The notes beneath the pieces were generated by a model that did not search any database, had not been told where the DNA came from, and saw nothing but the letters and a program-made list of their open reading frames with translations. Both the position numbers and the translations under genes were made by a program. Positions 4,269-27,739 of a stretch of 30,069 nucleotides of DNA are shown piece by piece (position 1 is the first letter of the stretch; the number at the start of each line of letters is the position of its first letter). Origin of the DNA: a virus; IMG/VR virus record IMGVR_UViG_3300020172_006014, positions 1 through 30,069 of that record; one strand, given 5' to 3'.

Positions 4269-4678
4269 ACGCAGTTGGTATTTGGTTTTTTAGTCGCGCC
4301 ACTCGTAGATATCTTTACCTTCTTAGAAACGACACACGACATCCAGATTCTTGGGGATTACCTGGTGGCAAATGTGACCGTAATGAAAGTCTACTAGATG
4401 GTATCTTAAGAGAGTGTCAAGAAGAACTTGGAATAAGTTTTGCGTCTAGTAAATTTTTACCTATAGAAAAATTCACCAGTGCCGAAGGAACATTTGTTTA
4501 TAACACATTCTTTTGTGCAGTAGATCAAGAATTCTTGCCCACTTTAAATGACGAACATCAAGGCTATGCTTGGATTGATTCTGGAGTGTGGCCAAGACCC
4601 ATGCATCCGGGTCTTTGGAATACCGTTAATTTAGATACAGTACAACAGAAGATTCAATTGATTGAGCAGGGATTATAG
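4250..4678 (+). CDS. Nudix hydrolase
   Basis: Nudix enzymes hydrolyse nucleoside diphosphates linked to another group, often clearing oxidised or regulatory nucleotides. The complete Nudix box GX5EX7REUXEEXGU is present: G40, E46, R54, E55, E58, E59 and G61 with the correct spacing, preceded by HPDSWGLPGG. The 142-residue length is typical of small Nudix enzymes; the substrate cannot be read from the sequence. I choose the GTG at 4250 (protein MESYIVNAVGIWFF) because GGAGG lies at 4242-4246, although the spacing is only three bases and the start is uncertain. The frame is open further upstream, but that part only shadows gp15. It overlaps the gp15 end by 19 bases, implying coupled translation. 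Its stop at 4676-4678 abuts the opposite-strand stop of the last fibre gene. Confidence 0.85.
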   Translation: MESYIVNAVGIWFFSRATRRYLYLLRNDTRHPDSWGLPGGKCDRNESLLDGILRECQEELGISFASSKFLPIEKFTSAEGTFVYNTFFCAVDQEFLPTLNDEHQGYAWIDSGVWPRPMHPGLWNTVNLDTVQQKIQLIEQGL

Positions 4679-9620: not shown

Positions 9621-12600
9621 TTATACGATTGTCCAGGTGGCGCCGTTGTCAATGGTCACAGTAATATTGTTATTAACTGTTATTGGGCCGCCACTTATTG
9701 CATTGTATGTATTAGAGACATTGCCGGTGGTTGTAATATTTGGACTGTTATAATTGAATCCCGCGGTGGCAGCAACCGCCCCTGGAGTTCCATCAGAAGC
9801 AAAAACTCCCAGAGTATTCCCTGCTCCTGATTTGAGAGATATTGTACCAAGATAAAGTGTATTGCCGCTTAGATATAAATCTTTCCATTGTGCTGTGGGA
9901 GATCCAAGATTGTAAGCTGCATTGGCAGCAGGTGTTATATTACCTTTGATTTGTGTAGTACCATTGGCAAATACAGCAACATTAGAGTTAGCAGCCACAG
10001 ACATAGTGATATTGCCGCCTGAGCTAACAATAGAAATATTTGAGTTACCATTGCTGAGATTGCCACCAGATGTCAATACACCACTAAGCAATGCGCCATT
10101 ACCAATGAAATAACCACTGCCTGAAGTAATATTACCTTCGCTGTACATTGATTTCCAGCTCAGAGCACTATTACCAACTACATAGGTATTTGGCACTGTT
10201 GGTAATACGTCGCTGTCAATGGCGTTGAATGGTGCATTAGCCACATATTCAAATCCACCAAGATCGTAGCTGGCTGAAAGTGTGCCATCGGTGACTAATC
10301 CATTGTCTACGTCGGGTGCGTCAATGCCTGCACTTACCAACCCAGCACTGTTATTTTGACTCCAGAATGTACCGTCATTGGTGCTGCCTGATATGCTGAT
10401 TGTAAGAACACCAGATGTGGCGTTGCCTACCATTGTAACACCGTTACCAGCACGTGGATACAGTATACCCACAGAGTTAGAAGCAGTTAAAGTAGCATTG
10501 CCAGCACTGTTGCCTGCGGTGTTGCCTTGAACTTGTAACTGATAATATACCGATGTCACAGATGCAATACCAGTTAAGAACGCACCGTTACCAATATAGT
10601 AATTGCCGGTTTCAATATTACCTGTGGCAACAACTTGTCCACCAGTGGTGATATTACCGCCGGTGACATTGCTGGTAGCGTTGATTGTACCAGTGGCGTT
10701 GACAGTGGTTGCAGCCAGTGTACCAACTACAAAGTTGCCGTAACTATTGACAGTGACTACTTCTGCAGTGATAGTGGCGTCAACTGCAGCGATTAGATTG
10801 CCAGCTGAATTATCATACCCAATAAATGAAGACTTTTCGCTGTCTGAATAATACCAAAGTTGTTCGCCACGATCTTTGTTATCATTTACAGTCAGTGGCG
10901 TATTGTTCGCACCGCGTCCAATGCCTATAATAGGATCTTGAACATTTAAATTAGTGACATTAATATAATTGGTATTGCCATTGACAGTTAGGTTGCCAGA
11001 AATCAAGCCATCACCTGTGACTGTCAAAGTTCCAATGTTGGCAATACCAGTGGTAGATATATTACCGCCAATGACATTACCGGCTGCTGACACTACGCCA
11101 GTTGTGTTGACATTACCAACGTTGGCATTGGCTCCGGTTGTGATATTCCCGCCAATTGATGCTATACCTGCAGTGACTAAATTTCCACCAATGACATTGG
11201 CTGTTGCTGTGATATTTCCTGTGGCAGCTACCAACCCAGTAGTTATTAGATTACCACCTGTAACGTTACCAGTGACATTTTCACTGCCAAGAACTGTGGA
11301 ATTTCCAGTGACTGCCAAAGTACCAATATTGGCTGTACCTGTGGTAGTGACATTGCCACCTGTGACGTTACCTGTGGCATTAAACGTGCCAGCAACATTT
11401 GCACCAGTACTTGTAACTACTAGTACATTTGCGGTGCCATCAACACTGGTGTTGACATTCCCATTGGCTACAGGAATGCTGACATTTGATGTTCCGTTGA
11501 CAATATTAGACCCGGCTGCAGCAACAACACCAGTGAGTTGACTACCATTACCAAAGTAGTAACTTGCGCTGACGTTGCTTGAGAATTGAGCTAAACTGTT
11601 TCCTGAGTAAATTGACAAAGGTACTGCAGATTGCCCAGACGCATTCTGATAAAAGGTTCTAAACGTATTGCCAGAATCAACATCAATATTCCAAGTACCA
11701 TTGGCTTGACCAAAAATTCCTGTGACCCCTGGCCAGGCCAAAACAATCTGGGCACCTTCACTGGGGCCTGCATCCATGACAAACTGATCTTTGCCTTTGA
11801 TAATTCCAGCGGTGGTTAAATTACCACCTGTGATGTTGCCAGTGGCTAATACCAGTCCACCAGTGGTTAAATTACCACCTGAAACATTGCCGGTTACTGT
11901 CAACGAGCTTAAGGTGCCAACCGAAGTAATATTGGGCTGTGCAGCATCAGTCACTGTGTTAGCGGTCGCTGCTAGTCCACTGATGTCAATCGCATAGGTG
12001 CCAGTGAGTCTAGCACTGGGAACAGTGCCTGATACTAGATTTGTAGCATTGGCACTACCAAGGAAGAAACCTGCGCTGACATTACCACTGACCCCAAGAT
12101 TACCAGTGACGTTTGCACCCACTGGTGTGATAGCAAATACGTTGGCAACACCGCCCACATTGGCCAAGATGTTACCACCTGAAGTGTCAATGCGCACGTT
12201 TGAAGTGCCATTAAAGATTATATCAGTATTGGTACTAATACCAGTAAGTTGTGATCCGTTACCAAGGAAGTAATTTGCACTGACATTGCCTGTAACGCCT
12301 AGATTACCTGTGACATTGCCGCTGCCTGTGACTGCCAGTGTACCAATGTTGGCTATACCAGCGGTGGTTAAGTTACCACCAGTGACATTGCCAGTGGCCG
12401 TAAAGGTTGTAGCTGAAACAACATTGGCTCCGGTGATATTACCACCACTACCTGCAGTGATAAGATTACCACCTGTAATATTTCCAGTTGCACTAATTAA
12501 TCCTGCAGTGATAAGATTACCACCTGTGACATTGCCTATGACTGTGGCAGCGCCTGTCACTGCCAGTGTGCCAATGTTAGCCGTACCTGTGGTAGTTAAA

Positions 12601-15600
12601 TTACCACCAGTGATGTTTCCAGTAACTGTTGCAGCACCGGTCACAGCCAAAGTACCAATGTTGGCTATACCAGCGGTGGTTAAGTTGCCACCAGTGACAT
12701 TGCTGGTTGCAGTGATTCTACCAGCAGTGCTGATATTACCACCAGTAATATTACCAGTAACATCAGCGTTGCCAGTTATAGTAGCAACACCGGTGACTAT
12801 CAACGTACCAGCATTGGCTATTCCAGTTGTAATGATATTACCACCAGTAATATTGGCAGTGGCAGTGAGATTACCTGTGACGTTTGCTCCGTCAGTGCTG
12901 ATCAAGAATACATTGGCAACACCGCCCACATTGGCCTGTATGTTACCACCCGAGGTGTCAATGCGTACATTTGAAGAACCGTTGGCAATCTTGTCAGTGG
13001 TAGAAACAATACCGGTCAACTGTGAGCCATTACCAAGGAAGTAATTTGCACTGACATTGCCAGTAACTGCAAGATTACCAGTGACGTTTGCGCCAATTGG
13101 AGTAATAGCAAATACATTGGCCACACCACCTACATTGGCCAACACATTACCACCCGAGCTGTCAATTCTTACATTTGAGCTGCCGTTGTTGATGTTGGCA
13201 ACTGAAGTAATAACTCCAGTCAAGAAATAACCATTACCAAGAATATAGCTTCCGCTGACGTTGCCAGTGACTGTGGTGATGTTGCCTGACGCTGATACTA
13301 GGCCAGTTGTGTTTAGATTTCCACTGCTGATGTTACCAGTTGCTGATATTAGGCCTGCAGTGCTCAAATTGCCCACTGTGGCATTGCCAGTTGCTGACAT
13401 TTGGCCAGCAGTGCTGATATTTCCAGCAGTTAAATTTCCTGTTACATTGGCAGTGGTTGTTGCTTCTAATTTGCCAACATTGGCTGTGCCAGCGGTGGTT
13501 AAATTGCCGGCTATGGCATTTCCAGTGACATCAATATAACCATTGATGTTGGCACCAGTGGATGTAATAATTAAAACATTGGCAGTGCCGCCCACGTTGG
13601 CTGAAATGTTACCACCCGAAGCGTCAATGCGTACATTTGAAGTACCATTGAAGATTTTATTGGTATCAGTACTGATACCAGTTAACTGTGATCCGTTACC
13701 AAGAATATAATTACCTTGGACATTACCAGTTGCAGTGACATTGCCAGTGGTACTGATGTTTCCGCCACTGATGTTGCCGGTGACTGTGGCAGCGCCTGTC
13801 ACTGCCAAAGTACCAACGTTGGCAATACCAGTTGTAGTTAAATTGCCACCTGTGATATTACCTGTGGCATCAAATGTGCCCAAAACATTTGCACCGGTGT
13901 TTGTTATCACAAACACATTGGCAACTCCACCTACGTTGGCAAGGATAGGACCATCTTGAGTGTCAATACGAATATTTGACGTACCAAGATTGATATTAGA
14001 ATAGTAAGTGTTGAGAACACCAGTTAATTGTGATCCGTTACCAAAATAATAATTTGCACTGGCATTGCCAACTACTTCTAGTATACCAACGTTGGCCTTG
14101 CCAACTGTGGTTAAGTTACCACCGGTGATGTTTCCAGAAATTCCAGCAGTACCTGATACAGTGATGCCAAAAGGTGCCACAACAAATACATTGGCGTTGG
14201 CGCCTACATTGGCTGAAATATTACCGTCTGGAAAATCAATGCGAACATTGGATGTTCCATAGTTGATGTTGGTAACGCCAGTGCTGTTGGATGTGGCTGC
14301 TACAACACCAGTAAGATATACACCATTGCCAATAAAGTAACCAACGTTTGATGTTACATTTCCAGTGATAACAAGCCCAGTGTTGGAAATAGCCATTACA
14401 TTGGCAGTGCCATTGACGTTGGCAAGAATATTACCATTTGCACCATCAATGCGTACATTTGAAGTGCCGCTGTTGATGATAGCCAGGCTGGTGATGACAC
14501 CAGTTAAAAAGTGACCATTGCCAAGAATATAATTTCCGCTGACGTTACCATTGGCAGTGATATTGCCAGCTGCTGCAACTTGATTGGTAAATTTGTCATA
14601 CGTAAACCCTATTAAAGAGTTTGCAACGCCGTTGTCGTTGAATACCACACCTGTATTTGGGCCAGGAATTGTAATGTTACCAACAATATTACCCACAACA
14701 TTACCAATAAAGTTCAGCGCACGTACATTGCCGGTAGAATAAATGTTGCCTGTGACTTTGAATCCATTGCCGTATTGGAATCGACCTTGTTCATCCCCGG
14801 TGTCTGCACCACCAGTTGAGAAAATAATATCGTTGTTTTCTAATGTGCTGAGTACTAGATTGCCGCCGCCAGTTGCGGTATTTCCTGCCACATACAAATA
14901 ACCGTCGTTGGCCTTTTGTAATCCAAACCCAGCTTGATTGTATCCTGAACTGTTGATACCTAGGTCAATATAGGTATCTGCGTCAGTGCCGTTGTCGGCT
15001 GTGGCCACAAAGTCTGTGCTTGCTGCCGAACCGTTGTCTTTGTTTTGAGCAACCAATTGAACATAACTGTTGGCAGTACCTGCGTATTGAAGATTGGCAT
15101 AGGCAGCAGTAAAACTCAAATCTTGACCAACACGCATATTACCAATTGCACTTAGATTACCTGAGACGTTGGCAAAACCAGTGACAGTGAGATTTCCAGT
15201 TGCCACAGTGCCAGCAATATTGGCAAGTCCATTGCTGTTGATGTTTCCGCCTGTGATATTTCCTGTTGCGTTAATTGTTGTGGCAGATAGAGAATTGTTG
15301 GCAGAGATATTGTTGGCTGTGATATTGCCAGTTGTAGTCAAACTCACACCAGTAGCTGCACCAATATTTGGCGTTGTTAGATTTGCACCGGCTTTGACAA
15401 TGATATTTCCAGTGCCGTCAAACGCAGTGGTATTGTTATCAACCTTAGCTGATATGATGCCACCATTGATATCAATACCGTTGCCTGCAGTATAAATCTG
15501 AGATTGACTAAATTCAGCAAAAGTTATGTTGCTGGTGCCAAATGTTATGGTTCCAGATGGTGAGTTAACTATCCAAGCCGAGCCAGCATTGACATTACCG

Positions 15601-18600
15601 CTTTGTACATAAAAATAATCGTTGATACCAAATGATTCAGAACTGTTTGACCCGTATTGATCTGCGTCAACAGAACGTACAATTGCCAAAGAGTTGGCCC
15701 AGGTGTAAACACCATTGAGCACGGCATTGCCTTCGTCTTTGACCAACACCCGTGTGCCCACAGTTTGAATGTTGGCAGTATCAATTAAGTTAAATGATCC
15801 AGTGGTGGTAATTGTTGCACCAACACCATTGGCAACACCATTGGGTTGTGCATAGGTAATGGTACCGCTGGTGGCCACAGCTAGATTAGATATTGTAGCA
15901 GCAACAACCGGTTCATGATAGGCGATACCTGTGGTTACTAAAGTATCAACATAGAATTTTGTAGCAGCGTCTTGATCTTGTACAGGATCAGCAAGACTAT
16001 TGATATAGTTGTTGTCCAACACAACGTTACCAGTGCCGCCAGGATTCAACTCAATGTTATTATTACCGCTTGTGGTGATCAAAATACCACCACTGCTATT
16101 GATGTTGGCAGTGACTACATTGGCAGCAACAACATTGGCTGTGGTATTGATATTACCAGTAGCAACAATTTGACCACTGGTAATTAGATTGCCACCTGTG
16201 ACATTACCTGTGGCTGAGATTAATCCTGCGGTGGTAATATTTCCGCCAGATACATTACCAGTCACACTCAGTGTGCCTGTGACACTGGTATTACCGGCTA
16301 GATTACTTAGGCCTTGTACTGTTAGATTTCCTACCCCATCAGCACCAACTGTTAGATTGTTGACAACCCCAACACTGCCGTTTTCGCCGTTGTAAAAAAG
16401 ATTAAGCGCACCAGTGCCGTTTAATCCATAAATGTAATTCCCGTCAACAATGATGTTACCAGACACAAAACTGACATTACCAGGCGTAAACAACAAACTA
16501 GTTGTGGTGCCTGAATCAATTTTGTTGCCCAAAACTTCAACGTTGGATCTAGCAATAATATTATTGCCATAGATATTCCCTGTGACGTTGGCTATGCCGG
16601 CTGTGACAAGATTGCCACCAATAATGTTACCTGTGGCATTGATCAACCCTGCGGTGATAAGATTGCCACCTGTTACGTTACCAGTGACAGTGGCTGCCCC
16701 AGTTACTTCCAAAGTTCCAATATTAGCTTTACCAGCGGTGGTTAAATTACCACCTATGACATTGCCAGTGGCTGATACTAGGCCAGCTGTGGTTAAATTG
16801 CCACCTATTACATTAGCAGTAGAAATGATATTGCTAGTGGCAACAACTTGGCCACCTGTGGTCAAATTGCCACCTATTACATTTCCAGTGGCATTAATTA
16901 ATCCAGCAGTGGTAATATTACCGCTTGATGTGTTACCAACAACACTGGCAGTGCCAGTGACTTCTAACGTGCCAATGTTGGCGATTCCAGCAGTGGTAAT
17001 ATTTCCACCAACGACGTTGGCTGTGGCATTGATATTGCCTGCGCTTGAAATATTACCACTTGACGTATTGCCAATTACTGTGGCGTTACCAGTGACTGCT
17101 AGTGTGCCAATGTTGGCAATACCTGCGGTTGTTAGATTACCACCTATAACGTTGCTGGTAGCAACAACTCGGCCAGGTGTAAGTAAATTACCACCTGCGA
17201 TATTGCCAGTGACATTTAAATTGCCAGTTACATTTCCTGCAAAACTACTAGTACCAGTTACTGCCAGAGTACCAATGTTGGCAATACCTGTGGTTGTTAA
17301 GTTACCACCAGTGATATTACCAGTTACCGCAGCTGGCCCAGTTACTTCCAAGGTACCAATGTTGGCAATACCTGTGGTAATTAAATTGCCACCTGTGACG
17401 TTACCAGTGGCTGCAATCAATCCACCAACGTAGGCATTGCCTGCTACGCCCAATCCGCCTGCAGTTTTTAGTGCGCCACTTGTAGTTGACGTTGCAGCAG
17501 TCGTAGATTTGATATTGGCAAGAGTAGTGACTTCCAGTGTACTGATATTAGCAATACCTGTGGTAATTAAATTGCCACCTGTAACATTTCCGGTAGCTGA
17601 TACTAAGCCACCTGTGTTTAAATTGCCTCCGGTGATATTGCCACTTGCTGATATCAAGCCGCCTGTGCCAACATTGCCGCCAGTGACGTTGCCGGTAGCA
17701 ACAACTTGACCGCCTGTGGTTAAGTTGCCACCTATGACATTACTGGTAGCGGTTGTATTGCCCGGAAACGTTACATTTCCGGTATTGTCAAATGTTGTTA
17801 CGTAACTTCCTGCGGTGACTGTAACATTGGATAAACTGCCAACAACGTTGTTGGTGCTGACTATTCCGTTACTGATTATATTTCCACCGGTGATGTTACC
17901 TGTGGAATTGATAACTCCCGTGGTGGTTAAATTGCCACCTATTACATTGCCAGTAGCTGATACTAAGCCACCTGTGGTTAAATTGCCACCTATTACATTG
18001 CCAGTAGCTGATACTAAGCCAGCCGTGTTTAAATTTCCACCTGTGATATTTCCAGTGACAGTTTGTGTTCCACCAACAGTGGAATTGCCAACAACTGCCA
18101 AGGTACCAATGTTACCAATTCCAGTTGTGGTTAAATTACCAACTGCGGCATTACCAGTTACTGACACCAATCCGCCAATATAGGCATTACCTACTACTCC
18201 CAACCCACCTGCAGTTTGCAGTGCACCACTTGTGGTTGATGTTGCTGCAGTTGTAGATTTGATATTGGCAAGAGTGGTGACTTCAAGAGTACCAATGTTT
18301 GCTGTGCCAGTTGTGGTAAAATTAGCTGATGTTGCATTTCCGGCCATCGTCACTGCATTGGTGGCTTTGTCAAAAGTAAACCCTGCTGTGGCGTTGGGTA
18401 AATTATTGTCGTTGAATAAAACCTGGGTGTTTGCCCCGCCTACTGTTATGTTACCAGAAATGTTACCAACAACATTTCCAAGGAAATATTGAGCAAATAC
18501 ATTACCAGTTGCAGCAAGGTTGCCGGTGACATTGGCACCCACAGTTGTGATAGCAAAAACATTGGCAACACCACCTACGTTGGCCAGGATGTTACCACCA

Positions 18601-20522
18601 CTACTGTCAATTCTTACATTTGAACTGCCATTGTTGATGTTGGCAACTGAAGTAATAATTCCAGTTAGAAAGTAGCCGTTACCTTGATAGAAATTAGCAC
18701 TGACATTACCGCTCGTTGTAATATTGCCAGTGGCATCAATTTTTCCTGGTGTAGTTAAGTTACCACCTGAGACATTGGCAGTTGCAACAACTTGTCCTGG
18801 GGTAGTTAAATTGCCACCTGAAATGTTGCCATCAGCAGTTACTTTTCCTGGTGTATTTAGATTACCACCTGAGATATTGGCAGTTGATAAAACATTGCCG
18901 GTAGAAACCACTTGACCAGCTACAATTATATTGCCGCCTGAAATGTTACCAACAGCTAGAACTGTTCCGTCTGTGTTTAAGTTACCACCAGTTATGTTGG
19001 CATTTGCTGTGACTGTGTTTGATGATAAGTTGTCAACGTTTAAATTACCACTGGTAGTAAGATTGCCAGTGACATTGACGTTGCCGGTGATATTGCCTTT
19101 GAATATTGCATCACCAGTTACTTCTAATCTTCCAATGTTGGCAGTTCCGGCTGTGGTTAAATTTCCACCTGTGACATTGGCTGTGGCTGTAAGACTAAAC
19201 ACTTGTAAGTTACCGCCGGCGGTAATATTACCGGTGATGTTGATGTTACCAGAAATATTAGCAATACTGGCATTGCCGGTTACGTTTAGATCAATAGTAC
19301 CTATACGATTGCCTGATGTAATATTGCCTGCACTGAGATTGGCAGTTACTGAAGTATTGCCTGTTAGTTGTGTGGTGCCACTGACAGTGGCATTACCGGT
19401 GACTGCCAAAGTAGCAATATTGGCAATACCTGTGGTCACTAAATTACCACCGGTGATATTACCAGTTGCACTAATCAATCCCGCAGTGGTGATGTTAGCA
19501 CCAGATAAATTTCCAGAAATAACAGCATTGCCGCTGGATTGTATTCTACCAACATCAGCAAGTCCAGCAGTGCTTAAATTGCCTCCACTAACAGTACCAG
19601 TTGCAGAAATTATTCCTGCAGATGTAACATTGCCCCCAGTGACATTGCCAGTTGCAGCAACATTACCAGAACTTGACATGTTACCACCAATGATATTGGC
19701 ACTGGAAGTGATATTTCCTGTGGCTGATATCAAGCCGCTTGAGATTAAGTTCCCACCATTGACGTTGGCGCTTGATGTAAGATTTCCGGTGGCACTGACA
19801 AATCCAGTGGCAGTGATATTCACTGCAGATAAATTACCACTGGCAATGATAGATTGCCCAGATAAATTACCAATAGTCACATTGCCAAAGTTGTTGACTG
19901 TGACTATCTCGTTGGCGATTGTGACATCTATGGCCATCAATAGATTGGCAGCACTGTTGTCAAACCCTATAAATGCTGATCGTTCGCTACTGGTATAATA
20001 CCAAAGTTGTTCGCCACGATCTTTGCCGTCATTGGTAATCAAAGGTGTGTTATTTGCGCCTCGCCCAATTCCTACAATAGGATCTTGTATGTTAAGATTT
20101 GTTACATTGATGTAGTTGACATTGCCTTGGACAGTTAAGTTACCGGTAATGATTGAATCACCAGCCACTGTCAAGAGACTGGTGGCCTTGTTAAATGTCA
20201 ATGCAGTATTACCTGCTACTATTCCGTTGTCGTTGAATAAAATCTGTGTGTTAGATCCTGGTGATCTAATATTTGTTGCATCAATGTTACCAATAAACCA
20301 AGCCGCAGAAACGTTTCCGCTGAAATTTGCTGTAGTCAGTGTAATAGAGTTTGCCCACACTCTATTGCCATTGCTTTGAATGGTAAGGATACTGTTGGCA
20401 ACACCGTTACCTAAATTAGGTTCAGCTTGACTTAGTGATAGGTATTGATAACGATCACTGGTGAGCTGATTTAACGGGACGACTGGAGCACGGCCACTGA
20501 GCAGTTTTGGTCCGTTTGCCAT
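9621..20522 (-). CDS. Giant 3,633-residue GN-repeat tail fibre protein
   Basis: One uninterrupted frame of 10.9 kb. Most of it is built from a 17-residue motif, typically 'SATGNVTGGNLTTAGLV', mixed with a longer 'IANIGTLAVTG.A.VTGN' form and with ~65-residue modules holding 'YFLGNGSQLTG', 'NGTSNVRIDTSGGNI', 'ANVGGVANVFAIT'. The ~60-residue N-terminal anchor starts MANGPKLLSGRAPVVPLNQL. A ~90-residue domain containing 'QDPIVGIGRGANNTPL' and 'DRGEQLWYY' occurs near residues 130-225 and again near 3180-3270. A common phage fibre domain (DQDAATKFYVDTL...RVLVKDEGNAVLNGVY) is near 1515-1680. A 'YVQLVAQNKDNGSAASTDF' domain is near 1800-1920, and a 'FVMDAGPSEGAQIVL' domain near 2910. The end is NITVTIDNGATWTIV. 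Likely a long trimeric beta-structured fibre. TAATATG junctions occur at both ends. Copy number may be affected by assembly. Confidence 0.85.
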   Translation of the reverse strand: MANGPKLLSGRAPVVPLNQLTSDRYQYLSLSQAEPNLGNGVANSILTIQSNGNRVWANSITLTTANFSGNVSAAWFIGNIDATNIRSPGSNTQILFNDNGIVAGNTALTFNKATSLLTVAGDSIITGNLTVQGNVNYINVTNLNIQDPIVGIGRGANNTPLITNDGKDRGEQLWYYTSSERSAFIGFDNSAANLLMAIDVTIANEIVTVNNFGNVTIGNLSGQSIIASGNLSAVNITATGFVSATGNLTSSANVNGGNLISSGLISATGNITSSANIIGGNMSSSGNVAATGNVTGGNVTSAGIISATGTVSGGNLSTAGLADVGRIQSSGNAVISGNLSGANITTAGLISATGNITGGNLVTTGIANIATLAVTGNATVSGTTQLTGNTSVTANLSAGNITSGNRIGTIDLNVTGNASIANISGNINITGNITAGGNLQVFSLTATANVTGGNLTTAGTANIGRLEVTGDAIFKGNITGNVNVTGNLTTSGNLNVDNLSSNTVTANANITGGNLNTDGTVLAVGNISGGNIIVAGQVVSTGNVLSTANISGGNLNTPGKVTADGNISGGNLTTPGQVVATANVSGGNLTTPGKIDATGNITTSGNVSANFYQGNGYFLTGIITSVANINNGSSNVRIDSSGGNILANVGGVANVFAITTVGANVTGNLAATGNVFAQYFLGNVVGNISGNITVGGANTQVLFNDNNLPNATAGFTFDKATNAVTMAGNATSANFTTTGTANIGTLEVTTLANIKSTTAATSTTSGALQTAGGLGVVGNAYIGGLVSVTGNAAVGNLTTTGIGNIGTLAVVGNSTVGGTQTVTGNITGGNLNTAGLVSATGNVIGGNLTTGGLVSATGNVIGGNLTTTGVINSTGNITGGNIISNGIVSTNNVVGSLSNVTVTAGSYVTTFDNTGNVTFPGNTTATSNVIGGNLTTGGQVVATGNVTGGNVGTGGLISASGNITGGNLNTGGLVSATGNVTGGNLITTGIANISTLEVTTLANIKSTTAATSTTSGALKTAGGLGVAGNAYVGGLIAATGNVTGGNLITTGIANIGTLEVTGPAAVTGNITGGNLTTTGIANIGTLAVTGTSSFAGNVTGNLNVTGNIAGGNLLTPGRVVATSNVIGGNLTTAGIANIGTLAVTGNATVIGNTSSGNISSAGNINATANVVGGNITTAGIANIGTLEVTGTASVVGNTSSGNITTAGLINATGNVIGGNLTTGGQVVATSNIISTANVIGGNLTTAGLVSATGNVIGGNLTTAGKANIGTLEVTGAATVTGNVTGGNLITAGLINATGNIIGGNLVTAGIANVTGNIYGNNIIARSNVEVLGNKIDSGTTTSLLFTPGNVSFVSGNIIVDGNYIYGLNGTGALNLFYNGENGSVGVVNNLTVGADGVGNLTVQGLSNLAGNTSVTGTLSVTGNVSGGNITTAGLISATGNVTGGNLITSGQIVATGNINTTANVVAANVVTANINSSGGILITTSGNNNIELNPGGTGNVVLDNNYINSLADPVQDQDAATKFYVDTLVTTGIAYHEPVVAATISNLAVATSGTITYAQPNGVANGVGATITTTGSFNLIDTANIQTVGTRVLVKDEGNAVLNGVYTWANSLAIVRSVDADQYGSNSSESFGINDYFYVQSGNVNAGSAWIVNSPSGTITFGTSNITFAEFSQSQIYTAGNGIDINGGIISAKVDNNTTAFDGTGNIIVKAGANLTTPNIGAATGVSLTTTGNITANNISANNSLSATTINATGNITGGNINSNGLANIAGTVATGNLTVTGFANVSGNLSAIGNMRVGQDLSFTAAYANLQYAGTANSYVQLVAQNKDNGSAASTDFVATADNGTDADTYIDLGINSSGYNQAGFGLQKANDGYLYVAGNTATGGGNLVLSTLENNDIIFSTGGADTGDEQGRFQYGNGFKVTGNIYSTGNVRALNFIGNVVGNIVGNITIPGPNTGVVFNDNGVANSLIGFTYDKFTNQVAAAGNITANGNVSGNYILGNGHFLTGVITSLAIINSGTSNVRIDGANGNILANVNGTANVMAISNTGLVITGNVTSNVGYFIGNGVYLTGVVAATSNSTGVTNINYGTSNVRIDFPDGNISANVGANANVFVVAPFGITVSGTAGISGNITGGNLTTVGKANVGILEVVGNASANYYFGNGSQLTGVLNTYYSNINLGTSNIRIDTQDGPILANVGGVANVFVITNTGANVLGTFDATGNITGGNLTTTGIANVGTLAVTGAATVTGNISGGNISTTGNVTATGNVQGNYILGNGSQLTGISTDTNKIFNGTSNVRIDASGGNISANVGGTANVLIITSTGANINGYIDVTGNAIAGNLTTAGTANVGKLEATTTANVTGNLTAGNISTAGQMSATGNATVGNLSTAGLISATGNISSGNLNTTGLVSASGNITTVTGNVSGSYILGNGYFLTGVITSVANINNGSSNVRIDSSGGNVLANVGGVANVFAITPIGANVTGNLAVTGNVSANYFLGNGSQLTGIVSTTDKIANGSSNVRIDTSGGNIQANVGGVANVFLISTDGANVTGNLTATANITGGNIITTGIANAGTLIVTGVATITGNADVTGNITGGNISTAGRITATSNVTGGNLTTAGIANIGTLAVTGAATVTGNITGGNLTTTGTANIGTLAVTGAATVIGNVTGGNLITAGLISATGNITGGNLITAGSGGNITGANVVSATTFTATGNVTGGNLTTAGIANIGTLAVTGSGNVTGNLGVTGNVSANYFLGNGSQLTGISTNTDIIFNGTSNVRIDTSGGNILANVGGVANVFAITPVGANVTGNLGVSGNVSAGFFLGSANATNLVSGTVPSARLTGTYAIDISGLAATANTVTDAAQPNITSVGTLSSLTVTGNVSGGNLTTGGLVLATGNITGGNLTTAGIIKGKDQFVMDAGPSEGAQIVLAWPGVTGIFGQANGTWNIDVDSGNTFRTFYQNASGQSAVPLSIYSGNSLAQFSSNVSASYYFGNGSQLTGVVAAAGSNIVNGTSNVSIPVANGNVNTSVDGTANVLVVTSTGANVAGTFNATGNVTGGNVTTTGTANIGTLAVTGNSTVLGSENVTGNVTGGNLITTGLVAATGNITATANVIGGNLVTAGIASIGGNITTGANANVGNVNTTGVVSAAGNVIGGNISTTGIANIGTLTVTGDGLISGNLTVNGNTNYINVTNLNVQDPIIGIGRGANNTPLTVNDNKDRGEQLWYYSDSEKSSFIGYDNSAGNLIAAVDATITAEVVTVNSYGNFVVGTLAATTVNATGTINATSNVTGGNITTGGQVVATGNIETGNYYIGNGAFLTGIASVTSVYYQLQVQGNTAGNSAGNATLTASNSVGILYPRAGNGVTMVGNATSGVLTISISGSTNDGTFWSQNNSAGLVSAGIDAPDVDNGLVTDGTLSASYDLGGFEYVANAPFNAIDSDVLPTVPNTYVVGNSALSWKSMYSEGNITSGSGYFIGNGALLSGVLTSGGNLSNGNSNISIVSSGGNITMSVAANSNVAVFANGTTQIKGNITPAANAAYNLGSPTAQWKDLYLSGNTLYLGTISLKSGAGNTLGVFASDGTPGAVAATAGFNYNSPNITTTGNVSNTYNAISGGPITVNNNITVTIDNGATWTIV
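10715..10985 (-). repeat. C-terminal copy of the 'VGIGRG...GEQLWYY' domain
   Basis: Encodes YINVTNLNVQDPIIGIGRG, then NNTPLTVNDNKDRGEQLWYY and SSFIGYDNSAGNLIAAVDA. It closely matches, at both protein and DNA level, the copy at 19850-20125 near the N-terminus of the same protein. Confidence 0.85.
17923..18024 (-). repeat. Near-perfect tandem duplication of a 51-bp unit
   Basis: Two adjacent 51-base units (17923-17973 and 17974-18024) are identical at 49 of 51 positions. Each encodes one 17-residue GN repeat. The likeness suggests a very recent tandem copying event or an active slippage/recombination site within the giant fibre gene. Confidence 0.85.
19850..20125 (-). repeat. N-terminal copy of the 'VGIGRG...GEQLWYY' domain
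   Basis: Encodes YINVTNLNIQDPIVGIGRG, then NNTPLITNDGKDRGEQLWYY and SAFIGFDNSAANLLMAIDV. The plus-strand text ccaaagttgttcgccacgat occurs in both copies, showing recent common origin or gene conversion across about 9 kb. Confidence 0.85.
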
Positions 20523-20876: not shown

Positions 20877-22721
20877 TTATGATGATTCCGATAGGGCCAA
20901 GATGTAGGGTGTCATTTGAGCAAACAAGGCTTTGTAAAAATAAATTCCTTCGATAGTTCCTTGCGCTTGGTTAATTGTAAAACCAGACCCTACTTTAAAA
21001 TTACCTTTTTGATCGGTACTTGTAAATGTTACCACTGCACCGTTGATTGCAATTACTTCATTCTCTTCAATGGGGATTCCACCGTATTGAGGCAATGCAG
21101 TTGCTGGGTTAGTGCCAGCACCAACATATTCAAACGTATGAGCACTGGCTATGATTGAGCTCCGAACAAAAAATTCAATGTTAGTGCTTGGTGCAAGATT
21201 GGCCACATATACTTCTTGAATTAACACAGTTGACGTAGTGGCACTGACAGGTATGATTGTGTCAATAGTATAGTATTCTGGATCACCGGCAATTTTCAAT
21301 ACTGTATTGACATGGGGTACACCATTAGACAAGTTATTGATAGTAAACAATCCGTTGACACTGTACCCCACTGTTTGCCCCGAAGTCTGTAGAGCTCCTA
21401 CACCATCAGCCACCAGTCCATAATTTCCAATACTACAGTCACTGCCGTTGAGAGTACAGAACCCACCTGATTCAACTTTAATACCAACGTCACAGGCAAT
21501 GGTATAAATGTTGACCAATTGGCTATAGGCACTGTTGAGTATGTAAATTCCTCTCCCGCCACGATTAATGATTGTGAAAAATCCCACAATCATTGCTTTG
21601 GTACTAATTGCACTAGTTAAACTACCATCAATTTTAACTGCAGTACCTGTGGTAGTAGCACTGGTTAAATTCTGTATATACGGACTGACAAATACATTCT
21701 GGGCAGGTGTCGCAGGATCGTAGCTGAATCCATTGGCCAAATAATTTCTAATAGTAATGCCCCAAACATAAGTGGCATTGGTCATATAAAAAAGATCCAA
21801 TGCAGGTGTCTGTGGTATCACTGAGACTGTTCTTAAGTCAGTGCCAATTAAACTAACATTTGCCGGAATCGTTATAGGATTATTCTCAGTGTAGCTGCCT
21901 GACGCCACATGAACTGCAGTGCCTGCCGTGGCTGCAGCCATTGCTGCTTTGATAGTCAAAAATGGTGTATTGAATCCACCGTTGTTGGAATCACTGCCGT
22001 TCTTGGCAACATAAAGTTGATTGGTACTGGCTGGTATAGCTCCAATAAAATTACCAGCAACAATGTTACCAGTATTGGTGAATACGTTTGATGCTTTGTT
22101 AAATGTCAGTGCCGATGAACCATTGGCCCTGCCTGAATCATTGAATAATACCTGAGTGTTTGCACCTGGAGCAGGAATATTACCTGTGATATTTCCGGTG
22201 ACATTTAAATTTCCTTGAATATTTGCTGCTGTGGGTGTAACTGTGATAACATTACTGATACCGCGAACATTAAAAACAATGTTTCCGTTGGCCTCCTGAA
22301 TGGAAACTGTGGTATTCCCAAACACAATATTATTTGCTGACTCTGCCACTACCCCAGTCAGTAAACGACCGTTTCCATAATAGTAGTTGGCAGAGACGTT
22401 ACCAATGGTATCAAACCCACCGGTGCCTAGGTATAAAGTATTGAATCGTAGAGTTGGTGTGCCAAGATCGTACACGTCATCTACTCTGGGCATAAACGTG
22501 GCGTTGGTTTGAACTACTCCAATACCTTTGGGTCCTAGTATGATGTTACCATTGATCTGAGACGTAGAAATCGTATTATTTGCAATAGCAATGTTGCTGC
22601 CCACTGGGCCAGCAGAATAGATTTCTGTGAAATTGTCATTGGTTTTGATAAACGCGGTGCGTAACGGATCACCATCGCCATTATCAGGCTGATTTCCAAC
22701 GTTAATAATTTGTTGTGACAT
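20877..22721 (-). CDS. Fibre/tailspike-like protein with beta-helix domain
   Basis: 614 residues. The N-terminus (QIINVGNQPDNGDGDPLRTAF, IKTNDNFTEIY) is a well-known virion-attachment start of T4-like fibre proteins. A GN-repeat stalk with one SNVRID-like module (FGNTTVSIQEANGNI) and a QVLFNDSG module follows, shared with the giant fibre. From about residue 240 comes a parallel beta-helix of the pectate-lyase-like type: LYVAKNGSDSNNGGFNTPF, TIKAAMAAATAGTAVHVASG, then repeated strands with single-residue turns (ITIRNYLANGF, MIVGFFTIINRGG, VNIYTIACDVGIKVESGG). The end is FAQMTPYILALSESS. Beta-helix tailspikes often bind or cut surface polysaccharide, but I cannot identify catalytic acids. The start is the ATG at 22721 with only a weak ribosome binding site (GGGAAG). 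Confidence 0.85.
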   Translation of the reverse strand: MSQQIINVGNQPDNGDGDPLRTAFIKTNDNFTEIYSAGPVGSNIAIANNTISTSQINGNIILGPKGIGVVQTNATFMPRVDDVYDLGTPTLRFNTLYLGTGGFDTIGNVSANYYYGNGRLLTGVVAESANNIVFGNTTVSIQEANGNIVFNVRGISNVITVTPTAANIQGNLNVTGNITGNIPAPGANTQVLFNDSGRANGSSALTFNKASNVFTNTGNIVAGNFIGAIPASTNQLYVAKNGSDSNNGGFNTPFLTIKAAMAAATAGTAVHVASGSYTENNPITIPANVSLIGTDLRTVSVIPQTPALDLFYMTNATYVWGITIRNYLANGFSYDPATPAQNVFVSPYIQNLTSATTTGTAVKIDGSLTSAISTKAMIVGFFTIINRGGRGIYILNSAYSQLVNIYTIACDVGIKVESGGFCTLNGSDCSIGNYGLVADGVGALQTSGQTVGYSVNGLFTINNLSNGVPHVNTVLKIAGDPEYYTIDTIIPVSATTSTVLIQEVYVANLAPSTNIEFFVRSSIIASAHTFEYVGAGTNPATALPQYGGIPIEENEVIAINGAVVTFTSTDQKGNFKVGSGFTINQAQGTIEGIYFYKALFAQMTPYILALSESS

Positions 22722-22792: not shown

Positions 22793-24718
22793 TTAAAATT
22801 GCACGTTACGGCGTTGTATTGTGGGTCGAGGATACACAGAACCGCTAGCAGGTCTTAGCCACGATCTTGCCTGCGGCCAAGGATTTCCTGTAGGGGGTCG
22901 ATCAGGATAATAGGTTGCTACCTGATTAGGAGCGCCGCGCAGGCTAAGAACAGGATTATTAGGCGGACATTGAATGTTGGAATCAAACATTACCCCGTTG
23001 TTGGCAAAGTTTTTAATGTATGTACGTGCTTCCATCTGTGTGGAGTTTGGGTATTGTTCCATCATGCAGGCTATAAGACCAGCAGTTTGAGGGCTGGCCA
23101 TGCTGGTTCCAGTTAATTTTTGTAGAAAGTAGGCAGCATTCCTAGGGTCTGAAACTCCAGAATTATATGCACTCATAATTTGAGTACCTGGACTGCAGAT
23201 GTCGCAGCCACTGCCCACACTGGATGTGCCATCTACTGCTTCGTTAGTCAAAGTGCCAATGTTTGCGGTGACCATGACTTTTTTCCAAGAATTAGTGTTT
23301 GGAGTACCAGTGGCTGCAAATGCTGGAGTTGACAATCTATATGGATATCTGGTTTGATAGATGGGTACCACATTAAGGAGTACACCAGCTAAAAAATTAT
23401 TTGTATTGTTGTAGTCCGGACTATCACTGTTCATGCCAGCTAGATCCCAGTTATTTCCAGCAGCCGCACACCAGATGATTCCTTCATTAGCGTTCATACT
23501 GTCAACAATTGCCTGATCTGCTGCAGTGTCTTGACCAGTAGAAAAAATCAAAACTATTCCATACAGATCATAATACTCAGGGTATAAGTTAAAACCATTA
23601 TTTAAAAATGTCTGGGCTGCCCATCTTCCGTTGTATGTGGCCTGTATGGCAGTTTGCCCAGCAGGAGCCGATGCAGGATAAGTGGTAGCAATTCCTCGAT
23701 AATTTATATCCCTAACATTCGGGAACGATGCGTTTGATGTTGGGCCAACAAAATAGTTTGATTGAAGCCCAAAACTCATGTTTACCACTGTGGGATTTTT
23801 TCTACCTGTGGCGGGATTTATTCCTTTGACACTGTTGTGCCAGTATCTAATGTAGGCCACAAGCTGTGCCGTTGTTGGTGTAGTTACTCCGTTGGTTTGT
23901 TCACCATAGGGGCTGATATTGTAGATAGTAGAGTCGCTGGCCCATCCCTGAGTATTTCCGGCCATGGTTCCTGCCACATGTATGCCGTGACCGTTGTTGC
24001 CCTCTGTGCCAGCAGAATAGTTGTAAGTTCCGGCTGCTTGCCCAGTGACTTGAGGATTGTACGCCCACCAGTTGATTTGATTTACTCGGCTGCCACCTGT
24101 ACCATCAGCGTTGACAGCGTACTCTGGGTGCCCCGGTAATATGTTCCCATCAAATACCACAACATCAATATTTTTACCACTGCTGGTAGTGACAATCTGA
24201 GCAGCTTGGTTAGCAGTACCGTCGCTGCCCCACCCAGAAATCTGCGCTCGGTTGGCTGCACGTAGTAGTCCCCAATTCTTCATCTCTGAGGTTACAACAC
24301 CACTTTTATCCCAGTTTGCAGAATACTCATATCCAAGCGGCTTAGGTTTAAGTCCTGACACTTCAGGGTGTGCTTCAACTGCCATTACCCTAGGATCTAA
24401 TTCTAGCAGTGCTGCTTCTATCGTTGACAGCAAATATGTTGTGCTGCGAAGAGTTGGCATACGTTCATCACATTCAACTACTCGGTCTGGGGCATAACCA
24501 CGAGTTCCTTGGCTTTCCATTTCATCGTAGAAGTTATTTTGGGTATCAATGTCATGAAGAGTCACTACATATCTAACACGATCTTCAATATCTAATATTG
24601 TCTGTGCCTGGTACCCAAGATATTGTCGAGCATGTGACAACAGTGCAACTGGATCTGGATTCTCTCCTAGCTCCTGTAATACCCTTGCCGATGCATCACT
24701 GTTGATGTTAATAGCCAT
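22793..24718 (-). CDS. Subtilisin-like serine protease (S8), virion-associated
   Basis: 641 residues with a complete S8 triad: Asp190 in DVVVFDGNILPGHPEY, His244 in NGHGIHVAGTMAG, and Ser539 in LTGTSMASPQTAG. The oxyanion-hole Asn is in CAAAGNN (about 422). The usual His after 'ASP' is Gln here, which some S8 enzymes tolerate. Residues ~48-122 look like an inhibitor_I9-type propeptide (RYVVTLHD...IEAALLELDPRVMAVEAHPEV). There is no signal peptide, so the enzyme is not exported by the Sec route and probably acts in the virion or during assembly. Possible roles are fibre maturation or digestion of host surface proteins. The ATG follows the preceding stop by one base; the Shine-Dalgarno is weak. 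It sits between GN-repeat fibre genes in one direction. S8 call firm; substrate unknown. Confidence 0.92.
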   Translation of the reverse strand: MAININSDASARVLQELGENPDPVALLSHARQYLGYQAQTILDIEDRVRYVVTLHDIDTQNNFYDEMESQGTRGYAPDRVVECDERMPTLRSTTYLLSTIEAALLELDPRVMAVEAHPEVSGLKPKPLGYEYSANWDKSGVVTSEMKNWGLLRAANRAQISGWGSDGTANQAAQIVTTSSGKNIDVVVFDGNILPGHPEYAVNADGTGGSRVNQINWWAYNPQVTGQAAGTYNYSAGTEGNNGHGIHVAGTMAGNTQGWASDSTIYNISPYGEQTNGVTTPTTAQLVAYIRYWHNSVKGINPATGRKNPTVVNMSFGLQSNYFVGPTSNASFPNVRDINYRGIATTYPASAPAGQTAIQATYNGRWAAQTFLNNGFNLYPEYYDLYGIVLIFSTGQDTAADQAIVDSMNANEGIIWCAAAGNNWDLAGMNSDSPDYNNTNNFLAGVLLNVVPIYQTRYPYRLSTPAFAATGTPNTNSWKKVMVTANIGTLTNEAVDGTSSVGSGCDICSPGTQIMSAYNSGVSDPRNAAYFLQKLTGTSMASPQTAGLIACMMEQYPNSTQMEARTYIKNFANNGVMFDSNIQCPPNNPVLSLRGAPNQVATYYPDRPPTGNPWPQARSWLRPASGSVYPRPTIQRRNVQF

Positions 24719-24719
24719 G

Positions 24720-25781
24720 TTAAATTTCTAATTCAAGGTAGGTAAATGTCACTGTGATAGTACCAGTGCTTCCGCTGAGATTTGTCACTGCAATAGGAAT
24801 AGTGTTGCTGACCGGACTTTCATCATTGAATCCAATTGTCGCCGGGCTCATCACTACAACATTTGCACCAGTGGTAATTACTTCGGCAATCACACCTGCA
24901 CCTGGTTGAGGATCTGTTGTTTGACTTCGAGTAGCATCTGTTGTTCTTGCTGCAACATTGGTATAGACTCTAACCCAACTGGCTGCTGAGGTAGTAATTT
25001 TGTAGATAGTGTAACCTTTGGCCAACGTCACAGAGTTAGTGGAATATGCGGCATTAGCTATACTTGCAGTGGTAATAGCAACATTGGCACGATTTCCGGC
25101 ACCGCCGCCACCAGTTACAACACCGGTCAACAATGCTCCGTTGCCTAAAATATATGTTCCTGCAACATTTCCAGTTGCAGTAATGTTGCCAGTTGCAGCT
25201 ATGAGTCCAGTTGTGTTGACATTTCCAGCATTGACATTTCCTGTTACATTAGCACCTGCTGATGCAGTTACTAAACCAGTGAACGTACCGGTGTTGCTGG
25301 AAATAGTTGTAGTAACTACATTTGACGAAATTACAGTAGTCAATGCACCATACGGTGCTGTCACAGCATTGCTGGCTGCAACATTATATATTGATAATTG
25401 TGTAGGTGTGATTGTGGCACTTCCCACAGCAATTTGAGTAGCAACATCAAGCAGAGTTGTTGCTGTGGTACCGCTGGTGGTTAAATTTCCGCCTGTGACA
25501 TTTCCTGTGGCTATAACAGCACCACTGGCAATCATACTAGCACCAAGTATATTACCGGTAGCTGCTACATTGCCACCAGTGCTGATTCGCCCTGCAAATG
25601 TCTGTTGTCCAGTTCCAGTTGCATTGATATTACCTGTTATGTTAACAGTGATTCCATCAATTAATTGCGTAACTGTAGTTCCGACGCGATTCCAGGCATT
25701 GGCAGTACTGTTGAATTGATAAGTGATATTTCCAACATTGGCTTGTTGACCGTTGGTTGGACTTGTAGGAAAAAATGCCAT
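24720..25781 (-). CDS. GN-repeat fibre protein (353 residues)
   Basis: Starts MAFFPTSPTNGQQANVGNIT and YQFNSTANAWNRVG, a phage fibre start pattern ('P.SP.NGQ....ITY.....AW.R'). Residues 45-230 hold the same 17-residue GN repeats as the giant fibre (NVAATGNILGASMIASG, AVIATGNVTGGNLTTSG) and one GTYILGNGALLTGV module. A short GGGGAGN hinge separates a C-terminal ~125-residue beta domain without repeats (YTIYKITTSAASWVRVYTN ... GTITVTFTYLELEI), probably a tip. GGGAGG five bases before its ATG is a strong ribosome binding site. Its ATG overlaps the stop of the upstream gene (TAATG), and its own stop lies one base before the protease gene. Likely a short fibre; its partner is unknown. Confidence 0.8.
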   Translation of the reverse strand: MAFFPTSPTNGQQANVGNITYQFNSTANAWNRVGTTVTQLIDGITVNITGNINATGTGQQTFAGRISTGGNVAATGNILGASMIASGAVIATGNVTGGNLTTSGTTATTLLDVATQIAVGSATITPTQLSIYNVAASNAVTAPYGALTTVISSNVVTTTISSNTGTFTGLVTASAGANVTGNVNAGNVNTTGLIAATGNITATGNVAGTYILGNGALLTGVVTGGGGAGNRANVAITTASIANAAYSTNSVTLAKGYTIYKITTSAASWVRVYTNVAARTTDATRSQTTDPQPGAGVIAEVITTGANVVVMSPATIGFNDESPVSNTIPIAVTNLSGSTGTITVTFTYLELEI

Positions 25782-27151
25782 TAATACCTCCCAACAGCAA
25801 TATCAATCACTTGAATGCTGTCATCTTCAATTACTCCAAGACTTTTACCAACTACACAGCCAGGAACCCAAAAGTTAGAGTCAACAACCCGGCCCACGCC
25901 CGGGGTGTCGCTGGTGGTAATCAAATCTCCTTTGGCAATGGGGCCTTGCACCTTGCATGGTACTCGCCCGGTCAATGCCAATGGTACGCCAGAAGTTTTA
26001 GTATTCATTAGATACGCTGGATTAGTAGAAACTACTCCTGCTACTCTAGGATCATGATCACGTCTGGTTGTTGTGACATCTTTGGAACCAAAGAATATCA
26101 GCACAGTACCAGGCTCATAATCATCATCTGCTTCGTAAATTTCAGCCAAGTCAGCATACAATGCTGAAGTTGATGTGGCAAAAACCCTGTTAAAATAATT
26201 TGATGAATTACCAATATTGCCAACACCACTGACATTTTGATTTACAATGTTTCCAACTTGGAATCCATCAGGGGTAAAGGATGCTATTGTAGTACCTGCC
26301 ACATTGGCATTAATGCTTCCGCTGGCAGTTACAATTTTAACTAGACTGGTACCTGAAATAATTTGTGTTGAGTCAACACTGATGCCAGTTAACTGACTGC
26401 CGTTGCCAACAAAATAGGCTGCACCAATATTACCAGTTGCTGATGCAGTGGAGCAAGCAATGGCATTTGCAGTAATTGATCCGTTAGTGTCACGCTGTAC
26501 TACTGTATTGGCTGCTGTTGAAGTAGTAGCTGGAGGTGTACCAATGCCTGTGATATCCACCCATTGATCGCTGTCGCCGTCGTTAACATACTGATAAACA
26601 ATGCCGTTGTTGGTGTTGAACCAAAAATCTCCAGCAGTTGAACCAGTGGGTGCTGTGCTTTGCGCATCAAATTTTACAGTTCCACCGCTGACAAACGGTA
26701 CTCCATTGGCAAAGTAATAGTTGTTGGTTAAAATATTGCCTGTTGTAACATTACCTGGTAATATTGCCCCGGATGTTGTCAGTAACATTACATTGGCTAC
26801 GCCAGCAACATCCATTTGGATATTACCTGAAAGATTGGGCAAGTCAACTTTGGAAGTACCATTCTGAATACGATTAGCTGATGCATTCCCAGCTGGAATG
26901 TTGGTTAATCCTGACCCATCACCAATAAACGTACCGGTGGTGATAAAATTTCCCACTGAAGTAATAGTATTACTTGTGATGTTGTTTGCTGTGATGTTGG
27001 CAGTGGGAAAAGATACAACATTTGAAACCAATAAATTTGTTGACTGGATATTACCAACTACATTTAATGTACCGGTATACATACTAATGTTACTAGTTGG
27101 TCCTAGAGTTACAATCTCTAAATTGCCAGAGACACGCTTAATAGTAGGCAT
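25781..27151 (-). CDS. GN-repeat fibre protein with YADLAE C-terminal domain
   Basis: 456 residues. The N-terminus MPTIKRVSGNLEIVTLGPTS is followed by GN-type stalk sequence and two SNVRID-like modules (NGTSKVDLPNLSGNI and SGTSLVKIVTASGSI). The middle has a 'GDFWFNTNNGIVYQYVNDGD' segment typical of phage fibre and structural proteins. The C-terminal ~150 residues (VGNIGNSSNYFNRVFATSTS, YADLAEIYEADDDYEPGTV, RVAGVVSTNPAYLMN, PLALTGRVP, end IDIAVGRY) are homologous to the end of the 4673-5434 protein at the other edge of the block. The AAGGA of the ribosome binding site lies seven bases before the ATG. It is four bases downstream of the Rossmann-like gene. The shared end may be a trimerising or receptor-binding tip; that is inference. 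Confidence 0.8.
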   Translation of the reverse strand: MPTIKRVSGNLEIVTLGPTSNISMYTGTLNVVGNIQSTNLLVSNVVSFPTANITANNITSNTITSVGNFITTGTFIGDGSGLTNIPAGNASANRIQNGTSKVDLPNLSGNIQMDVAGVANVMLLTTSGAILPGNVTTGNILTNNYYFANGVPFVSGGTVKFDAQSTAPTGSTAGDFWFNTNNGIVYQYVNDGDSDQWVDITGIGTPPATTSTAANTVVQRDTNGSITANAIACSTASATGNIGAAYFVGNGSQLTGISVDSTQIISGTSLVKIVTASGSINANVAGTTIASFTPDGFQVGNIVNQNVSGVGNIGNSSNYFNRVFATSTSALYADLAEIYEADDDYEPGTVLIFFGSKDVTTTRRDHDPRVAGVVSTNPAYLMNTKTSGVPLALTGRVPCKVQGPIAKGDLITTSDTPGVGRVVDSNFWVPGCVVGKSLGVIEDDSIQVIDIAVGRY

Positions 27152-27154
27152 TGA

Positions 27155-27739
27155 TTATTCCTTTTGATTATTTATGCTATCCAAGAACAGCGCAATGTCC
27201 TGATGTTTGAGGTTCTTTATCCCATCTAATTCTGGGTGCCGTTGGGTAGTTGGCCCGCACACCCTGATCCAGGAAATCATGGGGAAATCTGTGGTCACAG
27301 CTCGTATCTGCTTGATCCAATTACCAGTGAATGTAGGAAGATCGCCTATGCGTTTGTAGAATTCTGTGCCTGCGTAAACATTGTTAAACTTACCATCTGA
27401 GTTTGGACCCATGTCGTACCCTATGAGGTATATGGTATCGTGCCCATCTTCGGCTGCGATACTAGCACACACAGGACCAGAACTGTTTCCGTAATACTTT
27501 TTAGAGATTTGATGTGCACCGCGCCCGGGGATACAGCGACGGGTGTAGAATCTTTTTCTAGCACTGTATCCTGATTCTTGAATACGTGTGCTTATGGGCT
27601 GATCAGTTGCTATCAGCACATCTGGCTCATATTCTTTGTACAGGGCATTACACCCATAAATTGGCCCGTGTTCTTGTAATCGTGGTAAATCAAGTCCTTG
27701 CCGGCTGACGCCATTTCCCAAACAAAATGCAGTAGTCAT
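27155..27739 (-). CDS. Rossmann-like protein, MptE/DUF115 or sialyltransferase-like
   Basis: 194 residues. The N-terminus MTTAFCLGNGVSRQGLDLPR, then YGCNALYKEYEPDVLIATD, has the pattern 'LGNG.S....D...L.....GCN.....PD....D'. It is found in DUF115/MptE-like proteins and in bacterial sialyltransferase-like enzymes, where the glycine loop begins a nucleotide-binding Rossmann fold. A second conserved step reads IYLIGYDMGPNSDGKFNNVY, typical of the same families. Neither activity can be assigned from motifs alone. If it is a glycosyl-type enzyme it might modify virion or host sugars. Its ribosome binding site (GGAGG) is buried in the hairpin at 27740-27773 directly before its ATG. Four bases separate it from the next fibre gene. 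Confidence 0.6.
   Translation of the reverse strand: MTTAFCLGNGVSRQGLDLPRLQEHGPIYGCNALYKEYEPDVLIATDQPISTRIQESGYSARKRFYTRRCIPGRGAHQISKKYYGNSSGPVCASIAAEDGHDTIYLIGYDMGPNSDGKFNNVYAGTEFYKRIGDLPTFTGNWIKQIRAVTTDFPMISWIRVCGPTTQRHPELDGIKNLKHQDIALFLDSINNQKE
27169..27176 (-). promoter_or_regulatory. Possible late-type promoter box before the 456-residue fibre gene
   Basis: CATAAATA on the minus strand lies within the last codons of the Rossmann-like gene, 17 bases before the ATG at 27151. It differs from TATAAATA at one base. It would let the fibre genes be transcribed even if the upstream hairpin stops polymerase. The transcript start would fall close to the ribosome binding site, which weakens the call. 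Confidence 0.3.

Follow-up and report, generated by a model that had tools for sequence, protein, structure and literature searches.

The stretch of DNA analysed here (the window; 30,069 nt, positions 1 to 30,069 of IMG/VR record IMGVR_UViG_3300020172_006014) contains a gene for an S8 subtilisin-like protease of 641 aa (22793..24718, minus strand), recognised by ORF calling and by Pfam, PHROG and structure matches. On the plus strand the same segment is full of stop codons, and the intact ORF is found only on the minus strand. Just upstream lies the gene of a 353-aa fibre, referred to below as the partner fibre (24720..25781, minus strand); a single nucleotide separates the end of this gene from the protease start codon (TAA C ATG). 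The neighbouring genes on either side, also on the minus strand, encode a tail-fibre-like protein (upstream, 25781..27151; PHROG match) and a fibre with a baseplate-type N-terminus (downstream, 20877..22721; phrog_17885, tail fiber, 3e-68, and phrog_958).

The protease ORF matches Peptidase_S8 (Pfam, 7.5e-20) over residues 181-575, PHROG 9158, a family of unknown function (7e-66), and PHROG 3677, annotated as 'protease' (4e-19). An AF2 model based on an alignment of 65 sequences (the window plus IMG/VR loci; mean pLDDT 83, pTM 0.74) matches solved subtilases, including Meiothermus keratinase, aqualysin and proteinase K, with Z scores of ~35 over 270-280 aligned residues at 2.1-2.4 Å. The alignment of relatives and the structure match delimit a catalytic domain (residues ~129-609; 22892..24334, minus strand). 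The catalytic residues, assigned from the alignment, are Asp190 (24149-24151), His244, the first His of HGxH (23987-23989), and Ser539 (23102-23104), with Asn422 (23453-23455) as the oxyanion residue, all encoded on the minus strand; their contexts (D-x-G/N, HG-x-H, GTSMA and the oxyanion Asn) are those of the S8 family. Residue 247, considered as the catalytic His, was dropped, since it varies within the family. Asp190 and His244 are kept in 102 of 102 relatives, Asn422 in 100 of 100 and Ser539 in all 97 that are not truncated, and dN/dS among close relatives is 0.09-0.23. These two observations rule out a dead or decaying enzyme and indicate that protease activity is needed, and not the fold alone. 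Judged by its profile matches and modelled fold, the gene is a member of the S8 subtilases. It shares with the proteinase K/aqualysin/keratinase type the fold (24-30% identity), the triad, the oxyanion Asn and a propeptide-like domain, but differs from these enzymes in being phage-encoded and linked to a fibre, in having no visible signal peptide, and in carrying a docking-like C-terminal tail. It is also larger, i.e. 641 aa with insertions versus ~280 aa for the mature forms of the latter.

Residues 48-120 (24359..24577, minus strand) form a propeptide-like domain, delimited from the AF2 model and from weak Inhibitor_I9 matches in relatives. Residues 48-116 are modelled as beta-alpha-beta-beta-alpha-beta (pLDDT ~80-90), the order of elements seen in subtilisin propeptides. 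I9-type propeptides are common, though not universal, in S8 subtilases. Weak Inhibitor_I9 matches were obtained for 11 of 26 relatives (best E value 0.0019), and none was obtained with the window protease's own sequence. No signal peptide is visible in the N-termini that were read, and most relatives begin directly at the propeptide. A preliminary description of this DNA, made from the sequence alone, had proposed an intact subtilisin protease with all three catalytic residues, an I9-like propeptide and no export signal, set among fibre genes. The present data agree with it on the integrity of the enzyme, its catalytic residues, its N-terminus and its neighbours; as regards the propeptide, the modelled topology and the matches of relatives speak for the assignment, while the window's own sequence lacks an I9 match. 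The closer relatives of the window protease (e.g. L001-L006, L010, L043 and L045), and only these, carry an N-terminal extension of ~47 aa ahead of the propeptide (24578-24718 in the window, minus strand), modelled as two helices.

The partner fibres vary greatly in size (190-1598 aa) owing to an N-terminal part that is variable in length and sequence, while their last ~120 aa are conserved. In the window this conserved C-terminal domain (CTD), recognised by conservation, comprises 122 aa (24723..25088, minus strand) and is modelled as a beta-sandwich with a pLDDT of 96.6. Mean column identity is 57% for the CTD versus 35% for the protease. A sequence search of the PDB gave no match to the CTD. 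In structural comparison it is a beta-sandwich with no specific relative, and nothing was inferred from the best matches (the C-terminal beta domain of Tk-SP, a phage cement protein and others), since these were tied at Z ~7. Some partner fibres begin with T4_gp9_10_N (S-CREM1, S-H38) or Mtd_N (L094), N-termini which point to attachment of these fibres to the baseplate.

With a CTD profile for which only genomes of phage isolates and of single-cell phages were used, and which was then applied to metagenomic contigs, we found that the protease and the CTD fibre form a near-invariant two-gene unit. In nearly all cases the protease gene lies 1 nt behind the fibre gene or overlaps it by 1-4 nt. 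As many as 93 of 105 S8 ORFs directly follow a fibre with a CTD of subtype A and a further five follow one of subtype B, at a spacing of -4 to +8 nt; these counts refer to loci, some of them near-duplicates, and not to independent events. The remaining seven are (i) later copies in tandem arrays (two in L002, one in L003), (ii) the second copy of the L094 pair, whose first copy follows a CTD, (iii) two weak, spurious matches to fibre ORFs (L070, L077), and (iv) an ORF at a contig edge (L063). The pairing of CTD-B with an S8 enzyme recurs in S-SCSM2R and Sf-FS3, two further isolates of greater divergence. The sole unlinked case in this survey is S-TIM54, in which an S8 domain lies, with no CTD, within a 2140-aa structural protein encoded after the portal gene. 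The preliminary description had held that homologues unlinked to fibre genes would speak against a virion-borne protease; such homologues are almost completely absent. In three loci (L002:5290-12514, L003:3370-7966 and L094:3637-7993), two or three diverged S8 genes stand in tandem behind a single CTD fibre.

Relatives of the protease are far from rare. An alignment search detected them in at least 586 IMG/VR viral contigs, contrary to the initial impression that S8 proteases occur only occasionally in phage virion regions. The 39 phage records retrieved by tblastn (23-37% identity) all belong to marine Synechococcus or Prochlorococcus phages or to marine single-cell viruses. Among eight large relatives gp23 was found in six and psbA in none; by gene content these relatives are T4-like, and since psbA is lacking from all eight, the hosts are perhaps not only cyanobacteria. 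The window would accordingly come from a large aquatic phage of the T4-like kind, perhaps one that does not infect cyanobacteria. In a scan of bacterial and archaeal genome contigs, no more than four relatives of full or nearly full length came up (L116-L119), on contigs assigned to MAGs of Rhodobacteraceae, Rickettsiales and Euryarchaeota. Each carries the CTD-protease unit with the fibre just upstream, i.e. the phage arrangement, and therefore these are probably phage contigs mis-binned into MAGs. On these grounds an origin of the enzyme in bacteria or prophages was rejected. In a collection of phage genomes, the only near match to this end of the window, where the protease lies, was a capsid-like stretch of 375 bases.

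The reciprocal search, performed with the CTD alone, retrieved 78 IMG/VR fibres with a readable next gene, which encodes an S8 protease in 76 cases (72 recognised by an automatic test and four, L176, L177, L178 and L219, by reading, their frame overlapping the fibre end) and an S53, kumamolisin-like protease in two; as this search covered the best 80 loci, those closest to the CTD of the window, the share of S8 proteases is not a global rate. Both S53 products match kumamolisin (L185, 9e-31; L190, 1e-65), and that of L190 also contains Pro-kuma_activ. The S53 enzymes thus fill the same slot after a CTD fibre in some phages, but belong to another family with a different propeptide and different catalytic residues. 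Genes of this type were seen in L185:3865-5142, L190:655-2301 and L230-L247, while the S53 relatives in L248-L251 have neither CTD nor tail.

The element common to the S8 and S53 enzymes paired with CTD-A is a short C-terminal tail, RPxSGxxYPR. In the window protease we assign it to residues 605-636 (22811..22906, minus strand), a putative docking peptide ending in the conserved stretch RPASGSVYPR; the tail consensus of the CTD-A-paired S8 enzymes is RPETGNVYPKKNYKLRPTSGQVYPRPRIR. Most of the tail is modelled with low confidence (as disordered) in the monomer, yet P630 and R631 are invariant. The strict tail pattern is present in 82 of 87 CTD-A-paired S8 enzymes, with a YPR variant visible in the other five, and in none of the five paired with CTD-B. 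With a profile built from the S8 tails, the C-termini of the two S53 enzymes scored 30.9 and 14.9 bits, whereas 4.6 was the highest value among 400 shuffled sequences. Moreover, of the loci retrieved with S53 sequences as queries, 16 contain both CTD and tail and 5 neither, and in no case does one occur alone; several are near-identical contigs, and the loci correspond to ~7 versus 4 lineages by estimated grouping. Since tail and CTD occur together across two different families of catalytic domain, there is strong reason to believe that the tail binds the CTD, and that the fibre would in this way carry the protease in the finished virion.

Some isolates have, in the position after the CTD fibre, members of a second family of 600-930 aa, mutually homologous, with no Pfam family assigned and not a protease (e.g. 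S-BM3, Sf-CH1b, S-SCSM1 ORF232, ACG-2014i, S-H9-1). In cyanophage loci (L032:5374-7671, L031:5371-7197 and L015:23058-25028) most of these proteins have GNTGW in the N-terminus. A cupredoxin-like module of ~90 aa (seen in L025:10007-12013, L019:9977-12901, L022:9995-12166 and L149:6063-12485) is appended to several S8 proteins and also occurs inside non-protease partners; it matches the P-SSM2 tail spike, has a C-x2-H-x2-M motif visible near its end, and reaches Pfam Copper-bind only below the cut-off (0.001-0.007).

The presence of such an enzyme in phage particles, as suggested in the preliminary description, is supported by proxy. The CTD-B subtype is represented in S-SCSM1, whose ORF228 (1411 aa) is a distant S8 relative (26% identity, with 81% of the query aligned) and includes a lectin-type LamG domain (1.2e-25). 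In GenBank this ORF is annotated as 'baseplate wedge subunit (virion protein)', and the upstream partner fibre, ORF227, is likewise labelled 'virion protein'. Virions of S-SCSM1 purified in CsCl were analysed by mass spectrometry, which detected 45 proteins (PMC9602691), as compared with 48 such tags in the record. The tag most likely denotes detection by mass spectrometry, because the three non-structural proteins named in that study (ORF91, 213 and 214) carry it, while predicted structural genes, ORF17, 211, 215 and 245 among them, do not. A protease of the window's family therefore appears to be virion-borne in this phage. As the tag is also borne by the S-SCSM1 prohead protease, an enzyme of maturation, virion presence alone cannot separate a function in entry from one in maturation.

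We propose, with a probability of about 0.6, that the protease forms the enzymatic tip of a short tail fibre, i.e. a zymogen docked on the CTD that cuts host surface proteins. Its synthesis would very probably take place in the cytoplasm and yield an inhibited zymogen, whose RPxSGxxYPR tail would hold it on the CTD at the fibre end, so that the fibre carries it into the finished virion. With somewhat less assurance, the propeptide would then be removed and, as the phage adsorbs, the tip protease would cut proteins exposed on the host cell, either to open a way or to uncover a receptor. Of the roles suggested at the outset, such digestion of host surface proteins seems the likeliest. The other role put forward there, in which the protease would trim the giant GN-repeat fibre, finds no support: the GN-type N-terminal part of the partner fibre in L001, whose protease is 92% identical to that of the window, has matches in no more than 14 of 86 partner fibres, as against 86 of 86 for the CTD, and a GN-repeat fibre was consequently rejected as a conserved substrate.

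The main rival to this proposal is a maturation role, in which the contact of the protease with the CTD would be confined to assembly and would serve to process the partner fibre, or fibres next to it, by cleavage. Obligate linkage to one fibre at a distance of 1 nt, cytoplasmic expression with a propeptide, and the tagged prohead protease of S-SCSM1 would all suit such a role. It is weakened, however, by the non-protease partners that occupy the same position in S-BM3, Sf-CH1b, S-H9-1 and ACG-2014i, since CTD fibres paired with them evidently do not need proteolysis, and by the change to the S53 family, which fits poorly with cleavage at a single exact position; the LamG or cupredoxin-like extensions of some protease partners would also be needless for an assembly factor. 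We regard maturation as unlikely. Less probable still is an adhesin that retains the subtilase fold, with receptor binding as its main function and catalysis secondary: exchange with a non-protease partner and a position like that of gp38, the tip adhesin of T2-type phages (PMC12892980), would fit, but the catalytic residues are invariant in ~100 divergent relatives, the propeptide is kept, and a second protease family uses the same slot. That the enzyme is merely encoded among fibres and is released at lysis or acts inside the host (in takeover, superinfection exclusion or nutrient release) is very improbable, given its near-perfect linkage to one fibre domain, the shared tail and the tagged homologue of S-SCSM1.

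The closest parallel to the proposed fibre-tip protease is the gp37-gp38 tip of T2-type phages (e.g. S16, PP01), where a trimer of gp37 bears gp38 (PMC12892980). The gene order is the same, a fibre with a conserved end being followed at once by a putative tip-capping protein that is paired with one type of fibre end, and the partner is exchangeable in both cases. Gp38 is an adhesin with polyglycine helices, whereas the protein that follows the CTD fibre in the window is a catalytic protease; its only match in Pfam is Peptidase_S8, with no gp38 family. By analogy of arrangement the CTD-protease unit may work like the gp37-gp38 tip, although the protease is not a gp38.

Members of the family have been annotated before in cyanomyoviruses, either as 'S8 peptidase' (T4-GC518/519/292, with T4-GC518 present in P-HM1 and P-HM2; PMC3037559) or as 'subtilisin-like serine protease' (S-H38, S-WAM2, S-RSM4, P-SSM2). 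The annotated genes of P-SSM2, S-MbCM7, S-H38, S-WAM2 and S-RSM4 belong to the same family as the window protease, while T4-GC518 of P-HM1 and P-HM2 was not matched by tblastn. Beyond these names, the literature searched describes neither a function for the genes nor a rule of linkage or an element for docking. Our literature search returned no study of the function of the protease, the two-gene unit, the docking tail or S8/S53 exchange in phages, and papers beyond that search could exist.

The enzymes known from phage fibres are for the most part depolymerases of polysaccharides. It is conceivable, at slightly less than even odds, that aquatic T4-like phages share a general system in which a CTD socket and a tail plug mount zymogen proteases of the S8 or S53 family, or in some phages a non-protease partner, at the fibre tip. 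If so, many aquatic phages would cut host surface proteins at adsorption, and host-surface proteolysis would be a widespread stage of phage entry that has so far gone unrecognised. The same reading would give a testable function to PHROG 9158, a large family of 'unknown' phage proteins, and bears on the question of what proteins phages encounter on the surface of marine cyanobacteria and other hosts. The CTD and tail would also provide a natural plug and socket by which enzymes could be attached to phage fibres.

Several other features of the window deserve mention. A 3633-aa fibre composed of TGN/GGN-type repeats is encoded at 9621-20522 (minus strand), where the opposite strand also has long open frames. 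Among the tail genes, the ORF at 27155-27739 (minus strand) weakly matches phrog_4603, an alpha-2,3-sialyltransferase (2e-4). A putative HNH-type homing endonuclease (748-1410, plus strand) and a putative Nudix hydrolase (4169-4678, plus strand), both recognised by eye, lie beside structural genes.
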